The notes below the pieces were generated by a model that had not been told where the DNA came from, searched no databases, and worked only from the letters and a program-made list of their open reading frames with translations. The position numbers and the translations under genes are program-made. 64,000 nt of DNA, from contig NC_013743.1 in the NCBI RefSeq assembly GCF_000025325.1, forward strand, positions 2,790,001-2,854,000. Direction: 5' to 3'. This DNA is from Haloterrigena turkmenica DSM 5511. GTDB lineage: Archaea; Halobacteriota; Halobacteria; Halobacteriales; Natrialbaceae. Below, piece after piece: positions 2,716 through 25,989 of the stretch; position 1 is the stretch's first letter; every line of letters begins with the position of its first letter.

Positions 2716-2934
2716 TTATTGATCGATAGTGATCGTCCCGTTCTCGATCGCGATGCTGTATCCCGCGTATTCGAATCGGATCTCACTCGAATCGGCGAGT
2801 CGATCGAGCGCCTCGGGATCGATGCTGTCGTAGAGCGGTGGCAAGTCCAGAGGGTCGGTCCCTTCCATCTCGGACACTCTCGTCACAATCTCGGTAACGA
2901 ATTGAGTTTGCGAACGCTGGATGAGATTCCCCAT
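2716..2934 (-). CDS. HalOD1 output-domain protein
   Basis: A 72-residue protein made up almost entirely of a HalOD1 domain (halobacterial output domain 1). The pattern is clear: VTRVSEMEGTDPLDLPPLYD, then SIDPEALDRL, then IRFEYAGYSIAIENGTITI. HalOD1 proteins are small and haloarchaea-specific, found alone or fused to signalling domains. Their biochemical role is not established. A TATA box lies about 25 bases before the ATG, so the mRNA is probably leaderless. Confidence 0.85.
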   Translation of the reverse strand: MGNLIQRSQTQFVTEIVTRVSEMEGTDPLDLPPLYDSIDPEALDRLADSSEIRFEYAGYSIAIENGTITIDQ

Positions 2935-2955
2935 AGCGGTTCTTTCGACGCTCCT

Positions 2956-2964
2956 GTTTATAAG
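2956..2964 (-). promoter_or_regulatory. TATA box of the HalOD1 gene
   Basis: Reading on the minus strand, GCTTATAAAC is centred about 26 bases before the ATG at 2934. That is the usual archaeal TATA position for a leaderless transcript. Confidence 0.55.
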
Positions 2965-3102
2965 CGCTTCGCGAATGAAAGTAGACGATGATCGAAGATG
3001 CGGGTTTGTGATCGTTTACGATCCTTCCATTCAAATCCATGAAGAATTTAAAGTAATTATCTTGCAGGAGAAGTGGTGCCGCTATCCACCGTTCGGGCCG
3101 CG

Positions 3103-3594
3103 TCAGCGCTCGTACTCGAGGTCGCGCTCGCCGTCCGTTCCTCGCTCGCGATCGTGGTCTCGGATCCACTCGTCGGCGTCCTCGAGCGTCTCCGTCTCGA
3201 GCAATCGCTCGAGTTTGCGCTCGAACTGGTCGTCGGTCAACTCGCCCGCGGCGTAGCGATCGCGGAGCGTCTCGAGGGCGTCGCGGTGATCCGCCGGCGC
3301 GTCCGTTCGATCGCCGTCGGAATCGGACTCGACGTCCGCGCTCGAGTCGGTCGTCCAGTCGTCTAGCCACTCCTTCCGGTCGGCCTCGTCGCCGAACACG
3401 AGGGCGACCAGCGGGACGACGACGATGTAGCCGACCAACAGGGCGGCGAGCCACCAGCCCTGTCCCGTGAACATTGCGCCGAGCCACAGGCCGGTCACGA
3501 GCATCGACGCGATTCCGGTCGCGTTCTCGCGGAGGCGAGTTCCCGGATCGTCTTCGGTCCGCCGCCCTCGAGCGTTCCCCTCGCTCCCGTTCAT
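3103..3594 (-). CDS. SHOCT-domain membrane protein
   Basis: A 163-residue protein with two hydrophobic segments (about 28-46 and 50-68), an Asp/Ser-rich linker, and a C-terminal SHOCT motif (about 108-135: LETLRDRYAAGELTDDQFER, then KLERLLE). SHOCT is a short C-terminal helical motif that often accompanies membrane or oligomerising proteins; its role here is unknown. The ATG at 3594 gives an N-terminus of charged residues before the first membrane segment, as usual in haloarchaeal relatives. It sits alone, facing away from the hairpin array that starts about 190 bp upstream. Confidence 0.8.
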   Translation of the reverse strand: MNGSEGNARGRRTEDDPGTRLRENATGIASMLVTGLWLGAMFTGQGWWLAALLVGYIVVVPLVALVFGDEADRKEWLDDWTTDSSADVESDSDGDRTDAPADHRDALETLRDRYAAGELTDDQFERKLERLLETETLEDADEWIRDHDRERGTDGERDLEYER

Positions 3595-3785
3595 ACGTCT
3601 CTATTCGACCGGCACCGGAAATACGTTAACGGTCCGAGATATCGTCGAACGGACCAGCGAGACGCACAGCCGCGATCTATCGCGCTCGTACCGAGCATTC
3701 GGCGTGCGGTGGCGCGCGCCGACGACGCGTCCGAGCACCGCGAGGACGCGACGGAAAACCCGCGTGAGGTCTTCGCGAGTAGTGC

Positions 3786-4052
3786 GACCTTCGGTCCCGC
3801 ATACCATGCGACCGGTGCTTCGCACCGTGAGCAGATCGCATGGGCGAACGGCTTGGAAGACGCGAAGCGTCTTCCAGTGGATGATCGAACAACCGAAGGA
3901 AGTGAGCGTTAGCGCGGAACCAGAGGTTCCGCGAACCATGCAAACGGGCAGAGCGCGGCGCAACGCGCCGCGATTGTCGGGACGGCAGAGCCGTCCCGCA
4001 GCGCCCGTGAGCAGAAATCGGCTGGGGAGGGTGTGGCAATCACCGTTGCCAC
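3786..4052. repeat. Array of short perfect hairpins with three-base loops
   Basis: A run of perfect inverted repeats in a gene-free stretch (3595-4156). Arms and loops: 3786-3796 (4 bp, TTC), 3813-3827 (6 bp, TTC), 3854-3876 (10 bp, GAA), 3913-3933 (9 bp, AGA), 3954-3972 (8 bp, AAC), 3978-3998 (9 bp, AGA), 4033-4052 (7 bp, six-base loop). Arm sequences differ from one another, so these are not copies of one repeat; what is kept is the form. No convincing protein is encoded on either strand. Function unknown: structured RNA, cruciform-forming DNA or a decayed element. Confidence 0.7.
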
Positions 4053-4156
4053 GGTAGCAGGACGTCTGTTTTCGGCCGTGTTCTCTCTTTAGCCGCTGTG
4101 CAATCGAAACGACGCTGTCGCTATCGACCGTCGGAGACAGCGGAGAAGTGCGCGTG

Positions 4157-6364
4157 TTACGCGAGCGTCTCGCCGAGCGCCTCGAGTGCGGCCTCGCGAA
4201 CGGCGTCGCGTTCGCCGGGCAGGAACTCCACGTGGCCGTCCTGCCCGCCGACGACGCTGATGCCCCCGTTGGGCACCGCGTCGTCGATCGCCTCACCGAG
4301 CTCGCGGACGTTCAGCGACTCGGTCGCGCGGACGTGCAGTTCGTCGTCGCCGACGCCGAGGGTCACGAACGGGCCCTCGTCGCGCTGTCGACGGTGGAGC
4401 GCGTCGAGCAGCAGCTTCGTCGTCGGGAAGTTGTACCGGTGGGTGAACGCGTCGGTGTCGAGCACGGCGACGGTGACGCCGTCGACCCGCTCGGTCTCTA
4501 AGTTCTCCCGGGCCGTCTCGAGTTCGGTGTCGAGTTTCGCCCGGAACTGCTCGGAGACGTGGGCGGCCAGATCGCCGTTTCGACCCGTCTCCTCGTCGCC
4601 GAACAGCAGGTCGATGACGAGTTCGCGCTTGTCCTTGTACGACTGGTAGAAGGCCTCGAGGGCGACGGCTTCCCGCCGGTCCGAGACCGCGGTCTCGTCG
4701 TAGCCGGCCTCGGTCGCGAGATCGACGTACGCCTCGGGGGTGTCCTCCCAGTAGCTGACCGCGGGGAGGTGGACGAGGTCGTCGCGGACGTCGCTGTTGA
4801 TGTGGGCGGCGACGTTCGCGGCGAGCGCCGTCGACGTGACGTCCGAGACGTCGGCGCCGGACAGCGACGGTGCGACGGCGACCGAGACGGCGTCGGCGAT
4901 CTCCTCGTCGGCGCGGCTATCGTCGATGACGACCGTCTCGGCGTCGTACAGCGAGAGCAGGTCGTAGCCGTCGATCGACTCCTCGGTGGAGCCGGCGTCG
5001 GCGACGACGACCAGCGGCAGTTGCTCGCCGTGGCGGTCGCGGGCTTCGAGCATCGAGGTGACGTCGCTGGTAGCGGCGTCCATGTCGTAGACGCGGCCGT
5101 CGAGCGGGCGTCGCTCGAAGTAGTGGTACTCCGCGTCCTCGCGGGTGTGTTTCTCGCGGATCAGCGGGAGGACGGCCCGCTCGATGGCGGCGCCGGCGAC
5201 GTAGCCGTCGGCGGTCGCGCCGTGGCGGACGACGATCGGTCGGGCCTCGACGACGGCGCGGCGGATCGCGGTCGCGGCGTCGGAGAGTCCGTCCTCGACG
5301 GCGGCGACGGCGTCGTGGTCGGCCAGCAGGTCGATCTCGGCCGGTCGGGCCTCGCGTTCGATCGATTCCTCGAGACGGTCGCGGACGGTCTCGCGGTCCT
5401 CGCCCTCGAGGATCTCGAGGGTCTCCGTCTCGATCTGGAGGTCGCCGTGGTGGCGTTCGACCTCGCCCTCGAGGCGAACGACGTCGTCGACGTCGACGTC
5501 GGGGTAGGCGCGGACGCCGGCCTCCTCGAAGGCGGCACACTCGACGGTGGCCGTCTCGTCGCGGAGTTCGAAGACGGTCGGGCCGCTGGTCTGGCGGACG
5601 CCGGTGATCTCGCCCTCGAGGCGAACGACGCTGCCGACCTGGTTCTCGATGGCCTCGATCGTCGTGCGCTTGAGCGCCGGTTCGGCCTCGGGTTCGGCGT
5701 CGGCCGCGTCGTCGGTGGCCGCCGTCGAGCCGGTCGCGGCCGTCTCGGTTGCGACGCCGCCGCTACCAGCGGCGACGGTTTCGCTCGCGTTCGGCGCGCC
5801 GGTCTCGTCGGACGGCCCCGTATCGTCGGCGGCCGCCTGCAGGTCGCCGGCAGCGGGATCCTCGTCGGCGCTCGCTTCCGATTCGGTATCGGTCGCGGTC
5901 TCGGCTCCCGCGTCGGTGTCGGAATCGGATCCGGAACTGGAACCGGAATCGGCGGCCGACTCGGCTTCGGCGTCGTCCTCGAGATCCTCGGGACGAACCT
6001 CGTCGTCGCCCGTGTCGATCAGGTGGCCGCGGAACTCGCGTTCGCGCTGGCGGATCGACCAGCCGAGGTCGACGTTGCCGTTGTCTCGAACGTCGAGAAC
6101 CTGGACGAAGACCTCGTCGCCGGACTCCCAGTCGAGGCTCTCCAGTCGTCGGTCGAGTTCGCTCCTGTGCAACAGACCGGTTACGTGGTCTCCGATGTCG
6201 ACGAAGACACCGAAGTCGGCGTAGCCGTCGACGACGCCCCGGTAGTACCGACCGGGGGTGAGCTCCGAGGCGGACGTGCCACGAAATTCGAAGACCGCGT
6301 CCTCCTCGTGACTCTCGCAGATTTCGCCGTCGACAGTTGTGCCACAGATGATACAGTTACCCAT
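4157..6364 (-). CDS. RecJ-like DHH-family protein with zinc ribbon, S1 and OB domains
   Basis: A 735-residue protein. Domains in order: zinc ribbon (3-20, CIICGTTVDGEICESH), S1 RNA-binding domain (about 33-110), Asp/Glu/Ala/Thr-rich linker (about 120-225), OB-fold nucleic-acid-binding domain (about 232-320), DHH domain (about 340-560) and a DHHA1-like C-terminus with GGQDGHVEF. RecJ/Cdc45-type DHH proteins act in replication or repair as exonucleases or inactive scaffolds. Motif II is recognisable (VVVADAG), but the DHH triad at motif III reads DDS (VVIDDSRAD), and the first motif is ATADG without the leading Asp. Nuclease activity is therefore doubtful. It is monocistronic, with its start just after the end of the convergently oriented thiolase operon. 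Confidence 0.8.
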   Translation of the reverse strand: MGNCIICGTTVDGEICESHEEDAVFEFRGTSASELTPGRYYRGVVDGYADFGVFVDIGDHVTGLLHRSELDRRLESLDWESGDEVFVQVLDVRDNGNVDLGWSIRQREREFRGHLIDTGDDEVRPEDLEDDAEAESAADSGSSSGSDSDTDAGAETATDTESEASADEDPAAGDLQAAADDTGPSDETGAPNASETVAAGSGGVATETAATGSTAATDDAADAEPEAEPALKRTTIEAIENQVGSVVRLEGEITGVRQTSGPTVFELRDETATVECAAFEEAGVRAYPDVDVDDVVRLEGEVERHHGDLQIETETLEILEGEDRETVRDRLEESIEREARPAEIDLLADHDAVAAVEDGLSDAATAIRRAVVEARPIVVRHGATADGYVAGAAIERAVLPLIREKHTREDAEYHYFERRPLDGRVYDMDAATSDVTSMLEARDRHGEQLPLVVVADAGSTEESIDGYDLLSLYDAETVVIDDSRADEEIADAVSVAVAPSLSGADVSDVTSTALAANVAAHINSDVRDDLVHLPAVSYWEDTPEAYVDLATEAGYDETAVSDRREAVALEAFYQSYKDKRELVIDLLFGDEETGRNGDLAAHVSEQFRAKLDTELETARENLETERVDGVTVAVLDTDAFTHRYNFPTTKLLLDALHRRQRDEGPFVTLGVGDDELHVRATESLNVRELGEAIDDAVPNGGISVVGGQDGHVEFLPGERDAVREAALEALGETLA

Positions 6365-6432
6365 CTATTCGAACCAAGCGGTTTCGTCCTAAAACGGTTG
6401 TCGAAATGCGGCCGCGAGAAACGCCCCGCCGC

Positions 6433-7620
6433 TCACGGCGCGGACAGAATCGTCGCGATCGCGCAATTACCGAACCCACCGACGTTACAGGCCATTCCGA
6501 CGTCGGCGTCGACCTGCCGATCGCCGGCCCGTCCGATCAGCTGGTCGTAGAGCTCGACGAGTTGTGCGACTCCCGACGCGGCGATCGGGTGTCCCTTGGA
6601 TTTCAACCCGCCGGACGTGTTGACCGGCAGTTCGCCGCCGCGCTCGGTCGCGTTCCGCTCGACCAGCCGCCAGGACTCCCCGCGATCGGCGACGCCCAGT
6701 CCCTCGAGCTGGAGGAGCTCGAGGATCGTGAACATATCGTGGACCTCGAGGGCGTCGATGTCGTCAGGGGTCCGACCGGCGCGGTCGTAGACCCGTCGGC
6801 CGGCGTCGACGACCGCGCTCATGGCGGTCAGGTCGTCTCGCTCGTGGACGACGTGCGTTCCCGTCGCGCCGGCGATCCCATCGACGTGGACGTGTTCGCC
6901 GCCGTCGAGCGCGCTCTCGGCGACGAGTAACAGCGCCGCTGACCCGTCCGAAATCGGACAGAAATCGTACAGTCGGAGCGGATCGGCGACCACGGGCGAG
7001 TCGAGTACCGTCTCCACGTCGATCTCACGTCGGAAGTGGGCCTTCGGGTTGGCGACGCCGTGCGCGTGGTTCTTGACCGCGACCTTCGCCAGCGCCGTCC
7101 GGGGCGCGTCGTATCGCTCGAGATACCGGCGCGCGGTCAACCCCGCGAACGAGGGGATCGTGATCCCGTGTCTGTATTCCGCGGGGTGGGTGATCCCGGA
7201 GACGATGTCGGTCGCCGTCGCCGTCGAGAGATGGGTCATCCGCTCGCCGCCGACCGCGAGCGCTACCTCGCAGGTCCCCGACGCGATCGCCTTCCACGCC
7301 TCGTAGACGGCCGCCGCGCCCGAGGACGACGTCTGCTCGATCGCCACGGCGTGGGCCGGCCGAATTCCGAGCTCACCCGCGAGCGCGGCCGCCAGTCCGC
7401 TCTGTCCCTCGTACGCGCCGCCCGAGCGGGCGACGAAGAGGTGATCGACCTCGTCCGTCCCGATAGGCGCGTCCGCCAGACAGTCCGTGCCGGCCTCGGC
7501 CAGCAGCTCGAGCAGCGACGCCTCGCGCGGGCCGAACGGCGTCATCGCGGCGCCCGCGATGGCGACGTTCCGTCCGGGAGCGCCGGCCGGTGTGGCGGAC
7601 GCCGAATCGATTCGAGTCAC
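6433..7620 (-). CDS. Thiolase-family protein with Ser at the nucleophile position
   Basis: A 395-residue thiolase-fold protein of the SCP2/archaeal acetyl-CoA acetyltransferase type. The C-terminal motifs are well kept: SGGLKSKGHPIAASG and ACNVGGFG. At the N-terminal active site, where relatives have E-x2-C-x-SG, this protein reads EQTSSSGAAAV, so the acyl-accepting Cys is replaced by Ser (codons ACG TCG TCC TCG GGC, near 7340). It may be a non-condensing paralogue or use another mechanism. The GTG start overlaps the stop of the preceding MDR oxidoreductase by four bases (GTGA), so the two are co-expressed, possibly in acyl-CoA metabolism. Substrate unknown. Confidence 0.85.
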   Translation of the reverse strand: MTRIDSASATPAGAPGRNVAIAGAAMTPFGPREASLLELLAEAGTDCLADAPIGTDEVDHLFVARSGGAYEGQSGLAAALAGELGIRPAHAVAIEQTSSSGAAAVYEAWKAIASGTCEVALAVGGERMTHLSTATATDIVSGITHPAEYRHGITIPSFAGLTARRYLERYDAPRTALAKVAVKNHAHGVANPKAHFRREIDVETVLDSPVVADPLRLYDFCPISDGSAALLLVAESALDGGEHVHVDGIAGATGTHVVHERDDLTAMSAVVDAGRRVYDRAGRTPDDIDALEVHDMFTILELLQLEGLGVADRGESWRLVERNATERGGELPVNTSGGLKSKGHPIAASGVAQLVELYDQLIGRAGDRQVDADVGMACNVGGFGNCAIATILSAP

Positions 7621-8594
7621 GGTAGCAGGAGCACTTTCCCGCGGCTCCGGCGGTTCCGAACGTATCTGTGTGCCTCGTCCGCCTCCTCAAGGGGGAAGGT
7701 TCGGTCGACGACGACCTCGACGTCCCCCGACGACAGCAGCGAGTCAAGCGGCTCGAGGGCCGCGTACACTCGCTCGGGCCGGTTTTCGGCGGCCTCTCCC
7801 AGGTGATAGCCGATCACACTGTGATTGCCGAAGAGGAGTTCCGGGGTCGACACCGTCGGTACCTCGCCGCTGGCCAGTCCGTACGCGACGATCCGGCCGC
7901 CGGGCGCGAGCGCCTCCATGCTCCGGTCGAACGCGTCGCCCCCGACCCCGTCGAGTACCAGATCGACCCCTTCGCCACGTTCCTCGATCGCTGCGGGGAC
8001 CGCGTCGTAGGCGATCGCGTGATCGGCGCCGAGATCGGCCGCGAACTCGCGTTTCGCCACCGTGCTCGCGGTCGCGAACACCTCGGCGCCGGCCGCCGCG
8101 GCGAGTTGGACGGCGGCCGATCCGACGCCGCCGGCGCCCGCGTGGACGAGCACCCGCTCCGGCCCGACGTCGGAGCCGGGGGTCTCGAGGCCGCCCCACT
8201 CGAAGAGCGCGTTGTGGGCCGTCACCCACTGGATTGGGACGGCGGTGGCCTCTCGCAGCGAGAGCCCGTCGGAAACGGGAAACGCCCTGTCGGCCGCGAC
8301 GACGACCGACTCGGCGTAGCCGCCTCGCGGGACGTAAGCCGCGACCGCGTCACCCGGTTCGAAGTCGGTTCGGTCGCCCGCCTCGGCGATCCGGCCGGCG
8401 ACCTCGATGCCGGGCACGTACGGCGGCGTCGGCCCGTCGGGATAGGTGCCCCGTCGTTTCGCGAGATCGGCGAAGTTGATCCCGGCGGCCGCGACGTCGA
8501 TTCGGACTGCCGTCGCATCCGGCGTCGGCTCCGAGACGTCGGCGGGTTCTAACACCGCCGGCTCTCCGTACGCCGGAACGCGAATAGCTCGCAT
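7617..8594 (-). CDS. Quinone-oxidoreductase-like MDR protein
   Basis: A 325-residue zinc-independent medium-chain dehydrogenase/reductase. The N-terminal catalytic domain (MRAIRVPAYGEPAVLEPADV, AAAGINFADLAKRRGTYP) and the NADPH-binding Rossmann motif (VHAGAGGVGSAAVQLAAAAG, about 140-160) are those of NADPH:quinone reductases. It lacks the zinc-ligand pattern of alcohol dehydrogenases. It probably reduces quinones or enoyl/enal substrates with NADPH. It is the first gene of a two-gene operon with the thiolase, joined by a GTGA overlap, which suggests linked steps on the same acyl or carbonyl compound; this is an inference. Length is normal for the family. Confidence 0.85.
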   Translation of the reverse strand: MRAIRVPAYGEPAVLEPADVSEPTPDATAVRIDVAAAGINFADLAKRRGTYPDGPTPPYVPGIEVAGRIAEAGDRTDFEPGDAVAAYVPRGGYAESVVVAADRAFPVSDGLSLREATAVPIQWVTAHNALFEWGGLETPGSDVGPERVLVHAGAGGVGSAAVQLAAAAGAEVFATASTVAKREFAADLGADHAIAYDAVPAAIEERGEGVDLVLDGVGGDAFDRSMEALAPGGRIVAYGLASGEVPTVSTPELLFGNHSVIGYHLGEAAENRPERVYAALEPLDSLLSSGDVEVVVDRTFPLEEADEAHRYVRNRRSRGKVLLLP

Positions 8595-8682
8595 GTCCTT
8601 GGCGTGTTACGAGTGGAAGTATAAACGTCCCTATACCGGGAGCCGATCAGAAGGAGTCGTTGCCGGCGATTCGCCGATCGCG

Positions 8683-8946
8683 TTACTCGAAGACCGGCGA
8701 GTCCTCCTCGAGCGTTTCGATGTCGTCGGCGAGCTTCCGGACGTCCTCCGGAAACAGCGAGACCTGGACCTCGCTGCCGTCGTCGTCCTCGAAGACGAGT
8801 TTGACGCGCTTGTCGCCGAATTCGCGGGCCTCGGCGGACTCGACGTCGAACATTTTGACCGTCGCCGACTTGTTCGCCGGGCCGACGTTCTTGATCGATC
8901 CGTCGTTCAGCTCTACCATGAAGTCCTCGAGCGTCAGTGAGAGCAT
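8683..8946 (-). CDS. Conserved small haloarchaeal protein
   Basis: An 87-residue acidic protein. The open frame extends further upstream, but coding character begins at the ATG at 8946 ([20 protein letters not shown]), since the upstream part is Arg/Pro-rich and lies in the intergenic gap. It has alternating beta-strand-like segments ([37 protein letters not shown]) and a helical C-terminus ([17 protein letters not shown]). I recognise no characterised family. It is divergent from the MBL hydrolase gene. Confidence 0.7.
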
Positions 8947-9070
8947 ACGCGCCGTACGGGCCCCGGCTAAAAAACCGCACGGCATTGGCGGACGACCGGG
9001 CCGTCGCGGCGTCTCGTGCGAGTGGCTCGGTGCGTCGATTAGCGGTCCGAAACCAACCGGCTCGACCACC

Positions 9071-9078
9071 TTTAAGTT
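9071..9078 (+). promoter_or_regulatory. TATA box of the MBL hydrolase gene
   Basis: TTTAAGTT preceded by ACCACC, a plausible BRE, with its centre about 30 bases before the ATG at 9105. The spacing fits a leaderless transcript. Confidence 0.6.
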
Positions 9079-9104
9079 GCATTCGACCCAATCGGTCGCA
9101 CGCA

Positions 9105-9827
9105 ATGCAAGTCACCTGGCACGGCCACTCGACGTGGCACGTCACCGTAGGGGAGACGGAGCTGCTGATCGATCCGTTCTTCGACAATCCGAAGACGGAC
9201 CTCGAGCCGGCGGACGTCGACGAGCCCGATTACGTGTTGCTGACGCACGGCCACGCCGACCACATCGCCCACGCCGGCGAGTTCTCCGAGGCGACGCTGG
9301 TCGCGACGCCGGAGCTCGTTTCCTACTGCGAGGACGAGTTCGGCTTCGAGGACGCCGTCGGCGGGATGGGGATGAACTTAGGCGGCACCGTCGAGTGCGG
9401 CGACGCGTACGTCAGTATGGTCCGTGCCGACCACACCAACGGGATCATGACTGAAAACGACAAGAGCGGCGGCATGCCCGCCGGCTTCGTCGTCTCAGAC
9501 ACGAAGCCGACACAGGTCTCGGACGAGGAGTCGACGACGTTCTATCACGCCGGCGACACCTCGCTGATGACCGAGATGCGCGAGGTCATCGGCCCGTATC
9601 TCGAGCCCGACGCTGCCGCGGTCCCGATGGGCGATCACTTCACGATGGGGCCCCAGCAGGCCGCTATCGCCGTCGACTGGCTCGACGTCGACGTCGCCTT
9701 CCCCCAACACTACGACACCTTCCCGCCGATCGAGCAGGACCCCGAGGAGTTCGGAAGCGAGGTCGCAGGCACCGGCAGTGACGCCGAGGTCGTCGCCCTC
9801 GAGGGCGACGAGTCCTACGAACTGTGA
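9105..9827 (+). CDS. UPF0173-type metallo-beta-lactamase-fold hydrolase
   Basis: A 240-residue MBL-fold hydrolase. The N-terminus [13 protein letters not shown] and the metal-binding motif HGHADHIAH (about 46-54) are those of the UPF0173/UlaG-like family. Further ligands fit DHTNG, the Asp in YHAGDTSL, and the C-terminal [10 protein letters not shown] dinuclear metal hydrolase, substrate unknown. The ATG at 9105 is chosen because a TATA box lies about 30 bases upstream and family proteins start at this point; the longer open frame upstream is not coding. It is a single gene, convergent with the DUF457 protein. Confidence 0.88.
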
Positions 9828-9913
9828 GTTGAGCAGACGCGTCGACCGACGACGGACCGCCGATCACCGGCGGATCGGCTTTTCTTCTAGATACTGAGCG
9901 GTACCGCGAGACC

Positions 9914-10510
9914 TCAGTCGTTACCCCGCGAGCGATATCGGGTATCGCTCTCGGTGCGGTCACCGATCCGGTAGCGCGTCTCGAGCGGATAGCGTTCGCG
10001 CCGGGCCAACACCAGATGGAGGCCGACAGCGACGGCGAGCAGTCCGAAGTTCCAGACCGGCGAGGCGTAGTAGATGACGTCGACGATTACCGGTTCGGAG
10101 TAGACCGGCCAGAACGGCGAGAGCGGCGCCGCGATATCGGGAGCGGAGAGGACGTCCGCGAACAGGTGGCTGACGCCGCCGGTGATCAATCCCCCCGTCG
10201 CGAAGACGAACACCGTTCCGGCCGCGATTCGGGTGCTCCGAATTCGGCGATAGTCGTTGAACCAGTCGGTGAGGTACCGGGCGGCGACCGCCCCGACGAG
10301 AATGCTCGTCACTACGACGAACACCAGGGTGTGCGTCACGCCGTGGTGGGTGATCGGGAGGAACTGCTGTAGAACGAGGTCGGTGTCCGGGAGCATCGCC
10401 GTCACCAGGGTAAACGCCGTGAACGCGAGCGCACCTCGCCGTCCCCAGACCAGCCACGCCGGTGCGGCGAACAGCAGCGCCATGCCGAGGTGACCGGTGA
10501 CGTCAACCAT
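9914..10510 (-). CDS. DUF457 (YdjM-like) membrane metal-dependent hydrolase
   Basis: A 198-residue integral membrane protein. Conserved polar residues of the DUF457/YdjM family are present: an N-terminal GHLGMALLFA, then LPDTDL and THHGVTHTLVF, and later GGVSHLFADVLS. These His/Asp residues in membrane-adjacent loops are thought to bind metal. At least five hydrophobic segments are visible. The ATG at 10510 (MVDVTGHLGM) is preferred over the longer frame, whose N-terminal 49 residues are Arg/Gly-rich and unlike the family. Physiological substrate unknown. Confidence 0.82.
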   Translation of the reverse strand: MVDVTGHLGMALLFAAPAWLVWGRRGALAFTAFTLVTAMLPDTDLVLQQFLPITHHGVTHTLVFVVVTSILVGAVAARYLTDWFNDYRRIRSTRIAAGTVFVFATGGLITGGVSHLFADVLSAPDIAAPLSPFWPVYSEPVIVDVIYYASPVWNFGLLAVAVGLHLVLARRERYPLETRYRIGDRTESDTRYRSRGND

Positions 10511-10909
10511 CGGTCTTCGAGGGAACGGAACCGTCGAGTGACTCGAGAAAACGGTACGACCGCCGTCCCGATTTCCGGCACCGGCGACGAACTCGCGGCC
10601 GCACCGAGGGACGGGACCCCTTTCGTTCGCTGCCCGCGTCGGAGCGCCGTCGCCCACCGCCCCGTAACGGCGAGCCGACGTCGAATCCGCTCGCCGATCG
10701 CCTATCGGAACTGGCCATCATTCGTCCGTGAACGTTTCACGTCGGCTGATAAATCGAATTACGCTGCAAACGCAGGTCGCCGACGACGTGGTCGGCTTAC
10801 CGCTGTCCGATCGGCGAACCGCGCCCGGAAGGCGGTTCGCGCTCGCTGGCTCGCATCGGCAGTACACCACCAAACGTTTACAGCGCCGCCCGTGGACGAC
10901 TCGAGTGCT
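10511..10909. other. Divergent intergenic region
   Basis: A 400-base gap between the DUF457 gene and the OsmC gene. CGTTTACAG (10874-10882) is about 30 bases before the OsmC ATG and is its likely TATA element. GATAAATCG (about 10747-10755) is the only other AT-rich spot. No further gene is seen. Confidence 0.5.
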
Positions 10910-11305
10910 ATGGCGAAGCAGGTCACCACCGTCTCCGAGGAGGGTTACAGCGCGACGAACGAGATCCGCGAGTTCGAGACGACGATCGACGCCAACGGCG
11001 AGGACGCGCCGGACACGCTCGAGGCGCTGCTGGCCGCGTACGGCTCCTGTTACGTCCCGGCGCTGCGCGTCGGCGGGCAACAGCGCGACGCGGGCGACCT
11101 CGGGACGATCGAGATCGACATCACAGGCGAACTGAACGACGACGACAAACTCGAGTCCGTCCAGTTCGACGTCCGCGTCGAGGCCGACGTCGACGAGGAC
11201 ACCGGCGAGGAGGTCATCGAGCGCGCCTTCGAGCTCTGTAAGGTCCACGACGCGCTGAAGGACAGCCTCCACGCGGAGACGAGTTTCGAGGGGAACGCGG
11301 TCTAA
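10910..11305 (+). CDS. OsmC-family peroxide reductase-like protein
   Basis: A 131-residue OsmC/Ohr-superfamily protein. The two redox cysteines are in place: YGSCYVPALRVG (about residue 47) and ELCKVHDAL (about residue 109). OsmC proteins reduce organic hydroperoxides using a reactive Cys pair, although some archaeal members have other thiol roles. The ATG at 10910 is chosen because it begins the recognisable domain and has a TATA-like CGTTTACAG about 30 bases upstream. It is acidic, as expected for a haloarchaeal cytoplasmic protein, and appears to be a single gene. Confidence 0.87.
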   Translation: MAKQVTTVSEEGYSATNEIREFETTIDANGEDAPDTLEALLAAYGSCYVPALRVGGQQRDAGDLGTIEIDITGELNDDDKLESVQFDVRVEADVDEDTGEEVIERAFELCKVHDALKDSLHAETSFEGNAV

Positions 11306-11526
11306 CGCGGTTCTCGACGGGCGGTCCGCGCGCGATTCGCGTCGAATATACGACCGTCACGGTCGCGGTTGCGCGGGTGATTCGTTCGCCCGCTCGAACG
11401 GTCACCCCCGAATCGATCGAGGGAGGTCCGAGTATCACATTTTCTACAGCACATGTTTCTGAAGCGGATAGTAGTGGCAACTGAACGATCCGAACCACCA
11501 TACGCCGCGGCGTCATCGAATCGGGT

Positions 11527-12651
11527 ATGCGACGCCACCGCGGTCTCGTGGTCGTATCAGTCGCTGGACTGCTCGTTCTGTCGGGATGTCTCGGCGGGTT
11601 CGTTCCGAGCGACGGTTCCGAGGGCGCCAGCGACGACAGCGACGACGCCGCTGGCGACCTCGAGATCCACCACATCGACGTGGGACAGGGCGATTCGACG
11701 CTGCTGGTCACGCCTGACGGCGAGACGGTGTTAATCGATACGGGGATCTGGCAGGCCGACGGGCAGGGCGTCATCGACTACCTCGAGGGCGAGGGCATCG
11801 AGCGAATCGACCACCTCGTCACGACCCACGGCCACGCCGACCACATCGGCGGTCACGCGGCCGTCATCGAACACTTCGAGGAGCGAGGCGAGGGCGTCGG
11901 CGCGGTCTACGACCCCGGCGTCGCGTCTACCAGCGCCACCTACGACAACTACCTCGACGCGATCGAGGAGCACGAGGTCAGGCTCCTCAAGGTCGCCGCG
12001 GGCGATCACTTGCCCCTCGAGGACGAGTCGGTCGACGCGACCGTACTGAATCCGCCCGGCGACGACGACGGAGGCAGTATCGACGCCTACAGCACCGTTC
12101 TCAGCGTCGAGTACGGGGAGTTCTCGTATCTGACGACGGGCGACATCGAGGACGGAGCCGAGCGGCGACTCGTCGACGAGCGCGGCGACGCCCTCGCGGC
12201 CGACGCCTATCAGGCCGGTCACCACGGTTCTTCGACCTCGTCGACGGCGCCGTTCCTCGACGCCGTTGACCCCGAAATCGCGGTGATCTCGAGCGCGCTC
12301 GACTCCCAGTACGGCCACCCCCACGACGAGGTGCTCGAGGCCTTCGCCGATCGCGGCGTCGAGACCTACTGGACCGGCGTTCACGGTGACATCGTCCTCG
12401 AGACCGACGGCGAGGAGGTCGCGGTGACGCCCGAGACCGAGGGCCCGACCGATCCGGCGGCGCTGCTCGAGCGAAAGGAGCAGGCCCAGTCGGAATCGGA
12501 ATCGCTGTCGGCCCCGTCACCCGAACAGTCGCCGTCGCTCGAACAGTCATCGCCGCCCGAACAGCCGTCGTCGGTCCAGTCCCCGGCGTCGCTCGAGCGG
12601 GCGCCCGCACCGGTAGTTGATAGTGCCGCGCCGCGTCTCTCGGCACGATGA
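11527..12651 (+). CDS. ComEC/Rec2-like MBL-fold lipoprotein
   Basis: A 374-residue secreted hydrolase. An N-terminal lipoprotein signal with LSGC (about 19-22) suggests lipid anchoring outside the cell. The MBL domain resembles the soluble C-terminal domain of Com[46 protein letters not shown]. The last 70 residues form a Ser/Pro/Glu/Gln-rich tail. Such proteins may cleave DNA or nucleotides, which would suit nutrient use or DNA processing at the surface; this is family-level inference. Its stop overlaps the start of the DUF3006 gene (ATGA), a common pairing for this family. Confidence 0.86.
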   Translation: MRRHRGLVVVSVAGLLVLSGCLGGFVPSDGSEGASDDSDDAAGDLEIHHIDVGQGDSTLLVTPDGETVLIDTGIWQADGQGVIDYLEGEGIERIDHLVTTHGHADHIGGHAAVIEHFEERGEGVGAVYDPGVASTSATYDNYLDAIEEHEVRLLKVAAGDHLPLEDESVDATVLNPPGDDDGGSIDAYSTVLSVEYGEFSYLTTGDIEDGAERRLVDERGDALAADAYQAGHHGSSTSSTAPFLDAVDPEIAVISSALDSQYGHPHDEVLEAFADRGVETYWTGVHGDIVLETDGEEVAVTPETEGPTDPAALLERKEQAQSESESLSAPSPEQSPSLEQSSPPEQPSSVQSPASLERAPAPVVDSAAPRLSAR

Positions 12652-15424: not shown

Positions 15425-18400
15425 TCACTCGGCGGCGACGTCAGAACCGTTCGTTGCTGGACCCGTCTCCGTTCCGGCGGGTCCCTCCGGTTCACCGGGC
15501 GACTCGGGCGCTGGCGGCTCCGTCGGCTCGGGCGGCCCCTCATCGGTCGGTTCCGTTTCAGTCGGCCCCGTTTCGCTCGGTTCTTCCTCGGCCGGCTGCG
15601 TCGCCGCGATGGTCACCGACGCCTGCTCGTCGTCGGTCGCGACCGTGTGCGTCGAGTCGGTCTCCGGCAGCGTCAACGAGAACGACAGGGTCGTCGCGCC
15701 GCCGGCCTCGAGCGCGACGCTCTCCTCTGCGACGGTCTGGCCGTCGACGGCGTAGCTCACCGTCTGGGTGCCCTCGGCATCGCCGACGTTTTCGATCGTC
15801 GCGTCGACCGTCACCGACGACCCCGGCTCGCCGGACGCCGGTGCCTCGAGGTCGGCGACGGCGAACTCGGCCTCGCCGGGCTCCTCGATCGTTACGGTCG
15901 TCTCGGCGGTCGCGTTGTCAGTCGAGACCGTGACCGGGTACTCGCCGGGCTCGAGGTCGGCCGTGTCGGCGGTCAACGTGACCGATTCGGACGCACCGGG
16001 CTCGAGCGAGACCGGTGTCTCGTTGACGACCGAGCCGTCGATCGCCAGCTGAACGTCCTGCGTGCCGTTCTCCCCGCCGGTGTTCTCGATCGCGGCGTCG
16101 ACCTCGAGAGGATCACCCGCTTCGACCGAGTCGTTCGCCTCCGTGATCGAGACGTTGAACGCGGCAGGTTCGGTCGGCTCGCCCGAGTCGATCTCGCCGG
16201 CCGGCAGCGTTTCGGCGGTCAGCGGCTCCTCGTAGCCGTAGTTGCTCATGTCGACCTCCCAGACGAGTCGTTCGCTGTCGTTTTCGGGGGTCCAGTCGAC
16301 GGTGAACGAGTCGTTGCCGGGCTCGAGTTCCGACGGCGGCTCGTCGGCGGCCGTCCCCTCGACGAACTCGCTACCGACCGGCAGCGATTCGTTGTTTGGG
16401 TTCTCGTACTCGAAGGTGACCGCGATGCCGTCCTCGGTCGGCGCCGTCTCCGCGACGGAGATATTCGGCTGTTCGGGTCGGATCTCCTCGATACACTCGC
16501 TGGCGTCGGGGTTCGGGTAGTCGATCGAACCCGGCGTCGCGTCGGGCGACGCGAAGCCGGTGATCACGGCACCCGTATCGCCCTCGGGGATCATGACGGT
16601 CGCGCCGTCGGCCGTCTCGGCGATGGTGAAGTCGTCACCGGTCTCGTAGGTGAGCGTCCCCTCGAACGGCGCCGGGACGTCCTCGCCGACAGTGACAGCG
16701 TACTCGCCCATCGAGTTGCCGAAGCCGCCGCTCTCGTAGAACGCGGTCCCGACGATGATCGTGTCGCCCGCTTCGAAGGAGCCAGTCACCTCGGCCCGCG
16801 AACAACTGAGGAACGTCGCGTTGAACGTTGCCGGATCGCCGTCGACCGTGTACTCGACGGACTCGTTCGCCAGTGCCGTGCCGTTCTCGTCGGTGACGGC
16901 GACCTCGAGTGTCGCGTTCTCGGAGAGTGGCGGCTCGAGATCGAGCGACTCGAACTCGGCGGTCTCGTTGGCCTCGAAGAGATCGCTCTCCCCGCGTTGC
17001 GTGCCGTTCTCGTCGGTCGCGGTGAGTCGGTAGTCAACGGTCGCGTTCGCCTCGTCGACGACGAGCGTCTCGCCGTCGCCCGTCTGGTCCGACACGTTGA
17101 GCGTGGCCGCCGATTCGTTCGGCTCAGCCGGTTCGTCCGGAGCGTCGTCGACCGTGTACTCGACGGATTCGTTCACCAGCGCCGTGCCGTTCTCGTCGGT
17201 GACGGCGACGTCGACCGTCGCGTTCTCGGAGAGCGGCGAATCGAACTCGAGTTCGAGGTCCGTCACCGTCCCGTTGGCCTCGAATGACTGGCTCTCGGCC
17301 GTGGTTCCGTTAGCCGACGCCGTCACCGCGTAGTCGACGGTCGCGCTCGCTTCGTCGACGGTCAGGTTCTCGCCGTCGCCGGTCTGATCGCTCACTGAGA
17401 GCGTCGCGTTCGGCTCGGCCGGTTCCTGTGGTTCCTGGGGCTCCTGCGGTTCGTCGCCGACCGAGACGAACGCCGTATCGAGCACCGGCACGCCGGCGTC
17501 GGTGACGTACGGGACGTCCTCCGCCCCGTCGGTGTCGCCGTACTCGAACGTTCCGTCGTCGTTCGTATCGTGGTGGACCACCGCGGTGAGGGGCTGGTCC
17601 TCCTCGATCGGCTCCTCGAGGTCGATCTCGACGCCGGAGTGGCTCCCGGCTTCGAGGGCGCTCGACGTCCCGAGCACGGCGCCCGGATCGGCGACGGCGT
17701 CGGCCGCGTAGATCGCGACGAAGCCGCCCTCCGAGAGGTTGACCTCGTCGACGCTGACCGTCTCGCCGTCACTTTCCCGGTCGGCGAACGTAATCGACGC
17801 CGTTCCCTCGAGTTCGTCGATCTCGTCGGCGCGATCCTCGGCCGCGTCCTCGACGTACTGCCTGATTTCGGTGATATCGTCGATCTCCTGTTGGACCGCG
17901 TACGCGGTGGCGTTGGACGCGGTTTCCTGGGTCAGGACCTGCAGTTGCGTGACGCTGATCCGCTGATACTGGACGACGCGGGCCGTCTCCTGCGTGGCGC
18001 TGCTGGCGGCGACCTGGATCTGTTCGACGGTCGCCTCTTGAGACTGACTCAGCGCGCCGCTGGCACCGCCGGACGCCAGCCGCTGGACTTGGGTACTATC
18101 GATGACCTGCTGCTGGAGCACAGATCCCTCGCCGGCGCCGAACGCGGCGGCCTGAATCTGGTCGACGTCGACGATCTGGTACTGGACCGCCGACTCGATC
18201 GCTCCCTGAGACGCACCGACCGCGGCGTATTGGATCTGGGTGATCGAGATCTCCTGGTGCTGGACCAGCACGCCGCCCGCGGCCCCATCGGCCGCCGCCT
18301 GGATCTGCTCGATTGTGGCCGACTGGCTCTGATAGATCGCTCCCTTAGCCGCGCCGAAGGATGCCTCCTGAATCTGGCTGATCGAGATCCGCTGGACCTG

Positions 18401-19549
18401 TTCGACGCTGACGGTCTGGAGCTGCGTCAGCGAGCCCCGACTGGCTCCGCGGGCCGCGGCCTGGGTCTGCTCGACGGTGACTTCCTGTCGCTGGACAAGC
18501 GCTCCTTTCGCGGCGCCCGTAGCGGCCTTCTGTACCTGCTTGATGTCCACGCGTTGGCGCTGTTCGACGTCGATCTCCTGGCTCTGTTCGCCCTCGAGGG
18601 CTACTGGGACGCTTCCCTCGAGTGCGCCCGCGGACGCGCCGGCCGCCGCGTGCTGGACGTGCTCGAGCGTGATCCGCTGGCGCTGTTCGACGGTGATCTT
18701 CTGGTACTGCTCGAGGACGCCGTAGGCCGCCCCCTGCGCGGCCTCCTGGGTCTTCGGGTGGTCCTGAACGTCGCTATCGCCCGCTTCCCGGCACGCCCCC
18801 GCTGCGGCCCCGCGCGTGGCGACCTGGATCTGTTCGACGTCGGCGTGCTGTTTCTGTGCGAGGGCGCCGTGGGTCGCCCCCCAGGTCGCGCTCTGCATCT
18901 GGCTCGCTGCGACCGTCTGAGACTGGGCGAGCGCGCCGTCGGTCGCGCCGCCGACCGCGGACTGGATCTGTTCGATCTCGGCGTCCTGAGACTGGATCAG
19001 CGAGCCGTGGACCGCGCCGGCCGTCGCCGCCTGAATCTGTTCGGCGTCGGCCGCCTGGTGCTGGGCCGCCGACTGACTGGCGGCCTCGACGGCCGCCGCG
19101 CGCTGTTCCTGGGTCACCTCGACGCCCTGCTGCTGGGCCAGTTCGATCCCCTCGTCGACGCCGGCCTCGACGGCGTCCGTCTGTTCCTGTGCGAGCGAGG
19201 CGGTCGCGTCCGCGTCGGCCTTCGCTTCTGCGTCGGTCGCGGCCGATTCGGCCGCGGAGTCGAACGACACTAACTCGCCGTCTCCGGCCGACTGGCTCGC
19301 ACGCACAGGTTCTCGGTCCGCCGCATCAGCCGCGATGGAGTCCGCACTCCCACTGCCATCGTCTTGGCTGGCGGCCACACTGTCCGTAGCGGCGATATCG
19401 GTCGTTTCGCCGACTCCCTCGCCGGGATCGCTCTCGCCGCCCTCGAACGGGACGATACCGCCGCTGAGCAGCGGAAGTGCCACTACGCTCGTGACCATCA
19501 ACGCGGCGACGGCGAGCACCGCTACGGCCGCGCCCCGAGACCGATTCAT
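15425..19549 (-). CDS. Giant secreted protein with Gln-rich 23-residue repeats, DUF7282 and CARDB domains
   Basis: A 1374-residue extracellular protein. Residues 1-30 form a signal peptide (AVAVLAVAALMVTSVVALPL). Residues 31-150 are acidic and Ala/Asp-rich. About 151-545 consist of a helical repeat of 23 residues (consensus AAxGAxxGALxQxQxxxVEQIQ) with occasional eight-residue half-units (RISISQIQ). About 581-705 resemble DUF7282. About 715-890 hold two near-identical tandem domains (SVSDQTGDGENLTVDEAS), followed by a domain with SCSRAEVTG and two CARDB-like domains (about 1110-1300). The end is Pro/Glu-rich with no PGF-CTERM anchor or final membrane helix, so it may be released or held non-covalently. 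Function unknown; adhesion or cell-envelope structure is plausible. Confidence 0.8.
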   Translation of the reverse strand: MNRSRGAAVAVLAVAALMVTSVVALPLLSGGIVPFEGGESDPGEGVGETTDIAATDSVAASQDDGSGSADSIAADAADREPVRASQSAGDGELVSFDSAAESAATDAEAKADADATASLAQEQTDAVEAGVDEGIELAQQQGVEVTQEQRAAAVEAASQSAAQHQAADAEQIQAATAGAVHGSLIQSQDAEIEQIQSAVGGATDGALAQSQTVAASQMQSATWGATHGALAQKQHADVEQIQVATRGAAAGACREAGDSDVQDHPKTQEAAQGAAYGVLEQYQKITVEQRQRITLEHVQHAAAGASAGALEGSVPVALEGEQSQEIDVEQRQRVDIKQVQKAATGAAKGALVQRQEVTVEQTQAAARGASRGSLTQLQTVSVEQVQRISISQIQEASFGAAKGAIYQSQSATIEQIQAAADGAAGGVLVQHQEISITQIQYAAVGASQGAIESAVQYQIVDVDQIQAAAFGAGEGSVLQQQVIDSTQVQRLASGGASGALSQSQEATVEQIQVAASSATQETARVVQYQRISVTQLQVLTQETASNATAYAVQQEIDDITEIRQYVEDAAEDRADEIDELEGTASITFADRESDGETVSVDEVNLSEGGFVAIYAADAVADPGAVLGTSSALEAGSHSGVEIDLEEPIEEDQPLTAVVHHDTNDDGTFEYGDTDGAEDVPYVTDAGVPVLDTAFVSVGDEPQEPQEPQEPAEPNATLSVSDQTGDGENLTVDEASATVDYAVTASANGTTAESQSFEANGTVTDLELEFDSPLSENATVDVAVTDENGTALVNESVEYTVDDAPDEPAEPNESAATLNVSDQTGDGETLVVDEANATVDYRLTATDENGTQRGESDLFEANETAEFESLDLEPPLSENATLEVAVTDENGTALANESVEYTVDGDPATFNATFLSCSRAEVTGSFEAGDTIIVGTAFYESGGFGNSMGEYAVTVGEDVPAPFEGTLTYETGDDFTIAETADGATVMIPEGDTGAVITGFASPDATPGSIDYPNPDASECIEEIRPEQPNISVAETAPTEDGIAVTFEYENPNNESLPVGSEFVEGTAADEPPSELEPGNDSFTVDWTPENDSERLVWEVDMSNYGYEEPLTAETLPAGEIDSGEPTEPAAFNVSITEANDSVEAGDPLEVDAAIENTGGENGTQDVQLAIDGSVVNETPVSLEPGASESVTLTADTADLEPGEYPVTVSTDNATAETTVTIEEPGEAEFAVADLEAPASGEPGSSVTVDATIENVGDAEGTQTVSYAVDGQTVAEESVALEAGGATTLSFSLTLPETDSTHTVATDDEQASVTIAATQPAEEEPSETGPTETEPTDEGPPEPTEPPAPESPGEPEGPAGTETGPATNGSDVAAE
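17915..19099 (-). repeat. Coding tandem repeats, 69-bp period
   Basis: This is the DNA behind residues 151-545 of the giant secreted protein. Units repeat every 69 bp at the protein level (23 residues). Nucleotide identity between units is modest, so it is an old, diverged array. Each unit has a GxxxG pair (GAAKGAL) and a Q-rich VEQIQ segment. Copy number is roughly fourteen, with some units lengthened by eight residues. Confidence 0.7.
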
Positions 19550-24552: not shown

Positions 24553-25989
24553 ATGTCAAACAAAAACGATTCGAACGACGGCGTGGCGCGGCGATCGGTG
24601 CTCGCGGCCGGTGGCGCAACGACGCTCGGGGTGCTCGTGGGCGGTGTCGGAGCAGCGAACGGATCGGCGGTCACCCGGCAGGACGAGGGGGGCGAAACCG
24701 CCGACTCGAGCCGCGACGTCACGGTGAGACAGGAGCCGGGAAACGCCTTCTACTGGGTGCTTCCCGGTGAGCGACAGCTGAGTCCGCAGGTGTTCGGAAC
24801 GCCGGACGATCCGCGGCGGGGGAGCGATCTGCTCGAGTCGCGCATCGAACAGGCCAAGGGATTCCCCGAGCCGCTGGACGAGGCGATTCCGCAATTGCTC
24901 GAGGATCTACCGCCGCTAGTCGCGGCACCGGAGGACGCCCGCGAGCCGATCGAAGACGATGAGTCGGGCGGAATCGCTCGGGAACGATTCACCGAACCGA
25001 CGCTGTACAGCGACGAGGCCGAGGTGACCAGCGGCTCGTTCGAGGTCACCTACGGGGATCGACAGCCGTACGACCTCCCGGGTGAGCCGGGCGATACGAC
25101 CGACGCGGTCGACATCGACGCGCAGTTCACCGATCCGGCGGGCAACGAGTACGAAATCGACCACGACCACGTCGTGCAACCGCCGATTCCGGGCTACGAA
25201 ACGGGTGGCGGCGTGTTGTCGGGCAGCTGGCTGCACGGGATCACGGGGACCGGTTCGCCGCTGTTCCCTCGAGTGTACACCTACGGCGCGTCGTGGGGCG
25301 TCGGGGACGTTCGAATCAACGGCGAGGTGGCCACCGAGGACGGATTCCGCGTCATCCACTTCATGACGACCCAGACGGTACGCGACGAGCGCTATCGGAT
25401 GGCCGTAGACGAGGAGATGCCGCTCGCGCCCGACGGCACAATCGCGGGACAGGTCCACCACACCCACGGCGTCGTCCTGCCGATCAGGCCGACTCCGGAG
25501 GGGCCCGTCTACGATCCGGTGCCGACCGCGATGGAACTGCCGAACGGCGAGACCCAGCCGTTCATCCACGCGATGTGGGAACAGGACGAGATCGTCGAGG
25601 GGCCGTTCGACGACTGGGAGTTCCCCGGACAGGCCGATGGGGAGGCGTCGGACGCCGAGGAGTCGGCCGGTGGAGACGCTGACTTCCAGTTGGTCGGCGA
25701 GGCGTCGGCCTGGCAGGGCGCGGCGCCCGAGGCCATCGCGGGCGCGGAGAACCCGACGCTGCAACTCGAGGCGGGCACCGAATACACGCTCGTCTGGGAG
25801 AACGGCGACGGCCTCCAGCACAACTTCGCGATCGTGGACGCGAACGGCGAGGACCTTCTCGCGTCCGAACTCGTCGGCGATCAGGGGGCGACGCAGACGG
25901 TCACGTTCACCGCTAGCAAGGAGATGAGCGAGTACTACTGTCAGGTCCACCCCCAGAGCATGCGGGGCGGAATCGAGATCGGCGGCTGA
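24553..25989 (+). CDS. Secreted blue-copper (halocyanin-like) protein with a large N-terminal domain
   Basis: A 478-residue exported protein. A Tat-type signal (VARRSVLAAGGATTLGVLVG, about 11-30) opens it. Residues about 50-370 form a domain I do not recognise, with many His residues (DHDHVVQP, GQVHHTHGVVLP, PFIHAMW). The last 110 residues are a plastocyanin/halocyanin domain with the type I copper ligands in order: His in QHNFAI, then Cys in YYCQVHP, His two residues later, and Met in SMRGG. It probably carries electrons at the cell surface, and the N-terminal domain may bind a second metal. The gene is single and convergent with the GH15 gene. Confidence 0.82.
   Translation: MSNKNDSNDGVARRSVLAAGGATTLGVLVGGVGAANGSAVTRQDEGGETADSSRDVTVRQEPGNAFYWVLPGERQLSPQVFGTPDDPRRGSDLLESRIEQAKGFPEPLDEAIPQLLEDLPPLVAAPEDAREPIEDDESGGIARERFTEPTLYSDEAEVTSGSFEVTYGDRQPYDLPGEPGDTTDAVDIDAQFTDPAGNEYEIDHDHVVQPPIPGYETGGGVLSGSWLHGITGTGSPLFPRVYTYGASWGVGDVRINGEVATEDGFRVIHFMTTQTVRDERYRMAVDEEMPLAPDGTIAGQVHHTHGVVLPIRPTPEGPVYDPVPTAMELPNGETQPFIHAMWEQDEIVEGPFDDWEFPGQADGEASDAEESAGGDADFQLVGEASAWQGAAPEAIAGAENPTLQLEAGTEYTLVWENGDGLQHNFAIVDANGEDLLASELVGDQGATQTVTFTASKEMSEYYCQVHPQSMRGGIEIGG

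Follow-up and report, generated by a model that had tools for sequence, protein, structure and literature searches.

The gene examined here raises the question of what kind of structure is built by a long, glutamine-rich repeat array in a haloarchaeal protein of apparently secreted type, and whether this array belongs to any described repeat family. The gene lies in the window, i.e., the complete stretch of 64,000 nucleotides that was analysed, and occurs in a single full-length copy in the genome of Haloterrigena turkmenica DSM 5511. A plus-strand reading frame over 15425-19549 is ruled out by internal stops.

Architecture of the protein and of its repeat array

The protein starts with a hydrophobic N-terminus and an acidic linker, which are followed by the repeat array, a DUF7282 domain, a pair of twin domains, a CARDB domain and finally a Pro/Glu-rich tail. 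The features are as follows:

15425..19549, minus strand: whole gene, 1374 aa, ATG start
19460..19549, minus strand: hydrophobic stretch at the N-terminus covering residues 1-30, either a signal peptide or a membrane anchor that is not cleaved
19175..19444, minus strand: acidic linker, residues 36-125, 26% D+E, poorly conserved with high entropy
17900..19174, minus strand: array of about 15 repeat units over residues 126-550 with the consensus AARGAAKGALVQSQRVTVEQIQA, defined by autocorrelation and unit profile
18653..18676, minus strand: extra 8-residue module RITLEHVQ, residues 292-299, seen in the sequence and as a lag-8 peak
18530..18553, minus strand: extra 8-residue module RVDIKQVQ, residues 333-340, seen in the sequence, as a lag-8 peak and with the unit profile
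18368..18391, minus strand: extra 8-residue module RISISQIQ, residues 387-394, missing at this place in three of four aligned relatives
17465..17800, minus strand: DUF7282, residues 584-695, Pfam PF23951, E 1.6e-34, 118.9 bits compared with a cut-off of 27
17105..17416, minus strand: first of the twin domains, residues 712-815, sharing 67% identity with the second
16805..17098, minus strand: second twin domain, residues 818-915
15614..15859, minus strand: CARDB, residues 1231-1312, Pfam PF07705, E 2.5e-11

The preliminary description of this locus had named a DUF7282 domain, twin domains and CARDB downstream of the repeat, and all of them were recovered in that place. Hydropathy, averaged over 19 residues, reaches its maximum for the whole protein at residue 7 (2.61), whereas the top value within the last 100 residues is 0.91 and a C-terminal hydrophobic segment is absent there. 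A C-terminal anchor, taken as a hydrophobic segment plus a basic tail, is thus lacking from the 1374-aa protein, just as initially noted, and this combination is carried by three distant relatives (L086, L087 and L096). The export-type N-terminus and the surface-type domains agree with the original assignment to the secreted or surface proteins, and we infer that the protein is exported.

Within residues 111-575, autocorrelation was strongest at a lag of 23 (26.7% identity, compared with 16.9% for the 99.9th percentile of shuffle maxima), and secondary peaks appeared at lags of 72, 46, 54, 8 and 31. A unit profile yielded 236 bits for the real protein, and the highest score among 200 shuffled versions was about 4 bits; as the profile had been seeded with units of the same 1374-aa protein, autocorrelation provides the cleaner test for the repeat. 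About 12 full units were resolved by the profile, and degenerate ones bring the number to about 15, the first of which (AVEAGVDEGIELAQQQGVEVTQEQ, recognized by eye) begins at residue 126. In simplified form, the unit reads AAxGAxxGALxQxQxVxVEQIQx. Most units have 23 residues, and some have 25 or 26 with the extra residues between G8 and Q12. A regular repeat had been proposed before and is indeed present; the figures of about fourteen 23-residue units over approximately residues 151-545 need revision, given the larger extent, the degenerate copies and the variable unit length. The eight-residue half-units mentioned at the same time also exist and are copies of the xVxVxQxQ part alone. The array contains 17% Gln and no proline, its share of acidic residues is 11% compared with 24-26% in the flanking parts, and it harbors a single N-x-S/T sequon, while 27 of the 29 sequons are located beyond residue 550.

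Conservation, distribution and search for known families

In an alignment of orthologs, the array is the best-conserved region of the protein, with a mean entropy of about 0.6 bit compared with about 1.0 downstream and about 2 in the linker. Relative to H. salina, dN/dS is 0.16 for the array and 0.34 for the part after residue 700. The length of the array is nearly constant across genera, and the collinearity of best-matching units with those of H. turkmenica amounts to 0.92-1.00 in most of the family's genera tested, to 0.80-0.85 in the most distant of these, and to 0.52-0.80 in other families, a pattern which suggests an old array that has remained stable in its own family and has undergone rearrangement or renewed expansion in the others. 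At the level of DNA, little is left of the repeats (3.2 copies of 69 bases, 70% match), which together with the collinearity of units across genera leads us to reject a recent DNA expansion of the array.

Two AlphaFold2 models, one for residues 126-575 together with the H. salina ortholog and one for residues 388-545 together with rows from elsewhere in the two arrays, attained low confidence (pLDDT 37 and 33, respectively), and the fold therefore had to be derived indirectly. These low values, together with the biased composition, are what one would expect if the array were a disordered or neutrally drifting Gln/Ala-rich tract stemming from recent slippage. The near-constant length, the unit-by-unit collinearity across genera, the eroded DNA repeats, the lowest entropy in the protein and the low dN/dS all speak against such a tract, which we strongly disfavor and regard as hardly credible. 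Disorder throughout, named at the outset as an outcome that would contradict the preliminary description, is unlikely because no other part of the protein is as well conserved as the repeat. This conservation, the difference in dN/dS and the absence of proline indicate that the array is very probably folded.

Matches were found in 104 of the 125 genomes of the same family, covering 26 of its 29 genera and mostly consisting of one long match. In most genera examined, the flanks are conserved as well, with genes for a BioY-like protein, an ECF ATPase and CbiQ (bioY/ecfA/cbiQ) on one side and for DUF7545 and DUF5799 proteins on the other (names taken from Pfam, BioY-like assigned by eye). The gene is vertically inherited in its family. 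The same synteny is absent at one further locus of the family that encodes a long array (L082), at the paralogs and at all loci from other families. Beside the gene, we saw neither neighbors that would hint at a function or specific pathway nor any assembly machinery. In four further families of the order (f4, f5, f7 and f17), matches were sporadic and differed in unit number and C-terminal domains. Among 393 genomes sampled from the phylum, there were 20 matches, all of them inside the order. Confinement of the repeat to Halobacteriales is a provisional conclusion, since it rests on a sample of the phylum and on no sensitive profile survey of bacteria. Two relatives are plasmid-borne (in Halobaculum and Halomicrococcus), and scans of viral and phage sequences revealed none.

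Searches of the sequence libraries agreed with the earlier statement that no described system with this repeat is known to the observer. The best Pfam hit for the array had an E value of 0.36 (SNARE), NCBIfam gave none, and neither the whole protein nor the array profile matched the PDB up to an E value of 1. The leucine-rich repeat and glycine-zipper families in Pfam did not match either. A description of the repeat was not found in the literature, and the genome paper for Natrialba magadii likewise gave no hit for the terms used. As far as the searched libraries and papers go, the repeat family is thus undescribed, while its general kind, solenoid-like surface proteins, is known.

Anatomy of the unit and its possible fold

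The consensus AARGAAKGALVQSQRVTVEQIQA was drawn from 2325 units in 153 related open reading frames; some genes had been fetched twice, and identical units were counted once. Seven positions, A1, G4, G8, Q12, Q14, Q20 and Q22, are kept in 96-100% of the units (G4 and G8 in 99% each), and position 17 is T, S, N or D in 86%. Fixed and free positions alternate in a strand-like manner from 11 to 22 (p=0.002), the periodicity of positions 1-11 is helix-like (p about 0.01 at 90-95 degrees and 0.03 at 100), and the entropy of positions 18-31 has no significant helical period (p=0.19). These permutation p-values serve only as guides because positions are few, more than one segment was tested and the units share a common descent. 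Covariation, calculated as mutual information on canonical units, occurs at separations of 2 and 4 within positions 11-22, and in the AAxGAxxG stretch, which is conserved at 1, 4, 5 and 8, it links the pairs 3-7 and 2-6; direct coupling analysis was dominated by degenerate units that lose several Gln together. Between neighboring units, 19-19' and 15-15' covary. The spacing from G8 to Q12 varies between 2 and 10 residues and is non-canonical in 330 of 1432 cases, whereas the spacings from Q14 to Q20 (662 of 664) and from Q22 to the following A1 (1327 of 1344) are fixed. As the former is the only commonly variable spacing, each unit should contain one loop and form one coil.

Taken together, these properties are best accommodated by a beta/alpha (or beta) solenoid rod that would carry glycosylatable domains outside the cell, a tentative reading to which we assign a probability of about 0.45. 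The N-terminal array would fold into one stiff rod with one coil per 23-residue unit. The strand-like Q12xQ14xV16, perhaps extending to Q22, would run without a gap into the short helix-like A1AxGAxxG8, and the variable loop at positions 9-11 would lead to the next coil. Strand (11 residues) and helix (10 residues) would not match in length, so the strand would have to bend or end early. The invariant Gln and conserved Val may form the interior and lie stacked between successive coils, and Ala and Gly could permit tight packing on the helix-like side. The rod would display the DUF7282, twin and CARDB domains extracellularly, where they are probably N-glycosylated; adhesion or organization of the cell envelope appears the most likely role. 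For in-register contacts between neighboring coils, the covariation of 19-19' and 15-15' stands beside a pairing of charges that is no better than chance (odds 1.02 compared with an offset mean of 0.89, sd 0.18); the latter counts against a solenoid. Leucine-rich repeat proteins are beta/alpha solenoids with repeat lengths of 20-29 and a Leu/Asn core. The array shares with them the length range, the combination of a strand-like with a helix-like part and, as deduced here, one coil per unit, but its core would consist of Gln, Val, Ala and Gly. That it represents a new solenoid class, in which four near-invariant Gln hold each coil through amide ladders between coils and which serves as the rigid stalk of an envelope protein across most of the haloarchaeal family, is rather doubtful. 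If the solenoid reading is true, the array would be a repeat fold whose core is built, unusually, on Gln and which is stable in near-saturated salt, and the protein would be a stalk to be sought at the haloarchaeal cell surface.

The last part of the Gln-rich half could also be the start of a helix, and position 17 may either lie exposed on a strand or cap a helix. This ambiguity lends real weight to an all-helical arrangement, in which each unit would contribute one helix (from about position 18 to position 10 of the next unit) and a turn at 11-17, giving an Ala/Gly-packed alpha-solenoid or an antiparallel bundle. The residues at position 17, the hydrophobic positions 16 and 21 and the invariant Q20 resemble a helix cap, positions 1-9 are helix-like, and the AlphaFold2 model with a pLDDT of 37 put helices there in several units, a weak argument at such confidence. 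Opposed to this are the missing helical period over positions 18-31, the alternation over positions 11-22 and the architecture of a relative termed L085 (G195; repeat protein 7147-12567, plus strand). This protein contains five tandem 8-residue modules (NVTLRQSQ NVSVEQEQ TADAGQAQ NATVQQTQ NVTVEQIQ), several with N-x-S/T sequons and all without the Ala/Gly segment, and the VxVxQxQ part can therefore be repeated on its own. On balance, we consider the all-helical arrangement a serious but less probable alternative. It comes closest to the glycine zipper of the preliminary description, which holds up in part: the AAxGAxxG stretch has helix-like spacing compatible with GxxxG packing, with invariant glycines four apart and small residues around them, but this portion comprises only about ten residues per unit, the Gln-rich half alternates like a beta strand, and the site of variable length follows directly after G8.

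The solenoid reading also has to be weighed against an amyloid-like, self-assembling surface fiber, in which the Gln-rich segments would stack between molecules as in curli. Curlin repeats have a period of about 22-23 residues and conserved Gln positions. The array resembles them in both respects, and its Gln content, its alternating QxQxVxVxQxQ segments and its low charge relative to the rest of the protein would suit such a fiber. Unlike curli, it includes an Ala/Gly helix-like segment; moreover, the Pfam curlin family did not match the array even at an E value of 10, partner genes for export or nucleation, including those of curli, were not seen beside the gene, and large glycosylatable domains come after the array. 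We therefore judge such a fiber improbable.

Relatives with the same N-terminal array

In the relatives, the array keeps its N-terminal place while the C-terminal modules change: three or four DUF7282 copies, CARDB, a carboxypeptidase-regulatory-like domain, NosD/beta-helix regions and long acidic or Thr-rich tails were observed. The array is thus an N-terminal module joined to changing surface-type modules. An example is L087 (G217; 2839-8496, minus strand), a protein of 1886 aa in which the array is followed by copies of DUF7282 and a region of the NosD/right-handed beta-helix type, and which has a hydrophobic segment at its C-terminus. Three shorter paralogs (L090, 6098-7141; L091, 6562-8229; L095, 4845-7442) have, by eye, twin-arginine-type signals, unlike the protein in the window, and such signals would suggest folding before export. 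Secreted haloarchaeal DUF7282/CARDB proteins share the C-terminal modules; five more sites in this genome match DUF7282 or adjoining parts, and none matches the array. Most genomes of the family keep the gene, and the two database records for the plasmid-borne relatives read "hypothetical protein"; the unit profile is ready to become a family entry.

Two further observations were made in the H. turkmenica genome. What follows the twin domains (query residues 896-1026 and 1119-1223) recurs in other proteins without the repeat, namely at G000:C1:3264536-3265225 (L003, L008) and G000:C1:85859-86665 (L007). On the plus strand of the window, at 24553-25989, a 478-aa open reading frame without a Pfam match begins with a twin-arginine-type N-terminus (ARRSVLAAGGATTLGVLVGG).
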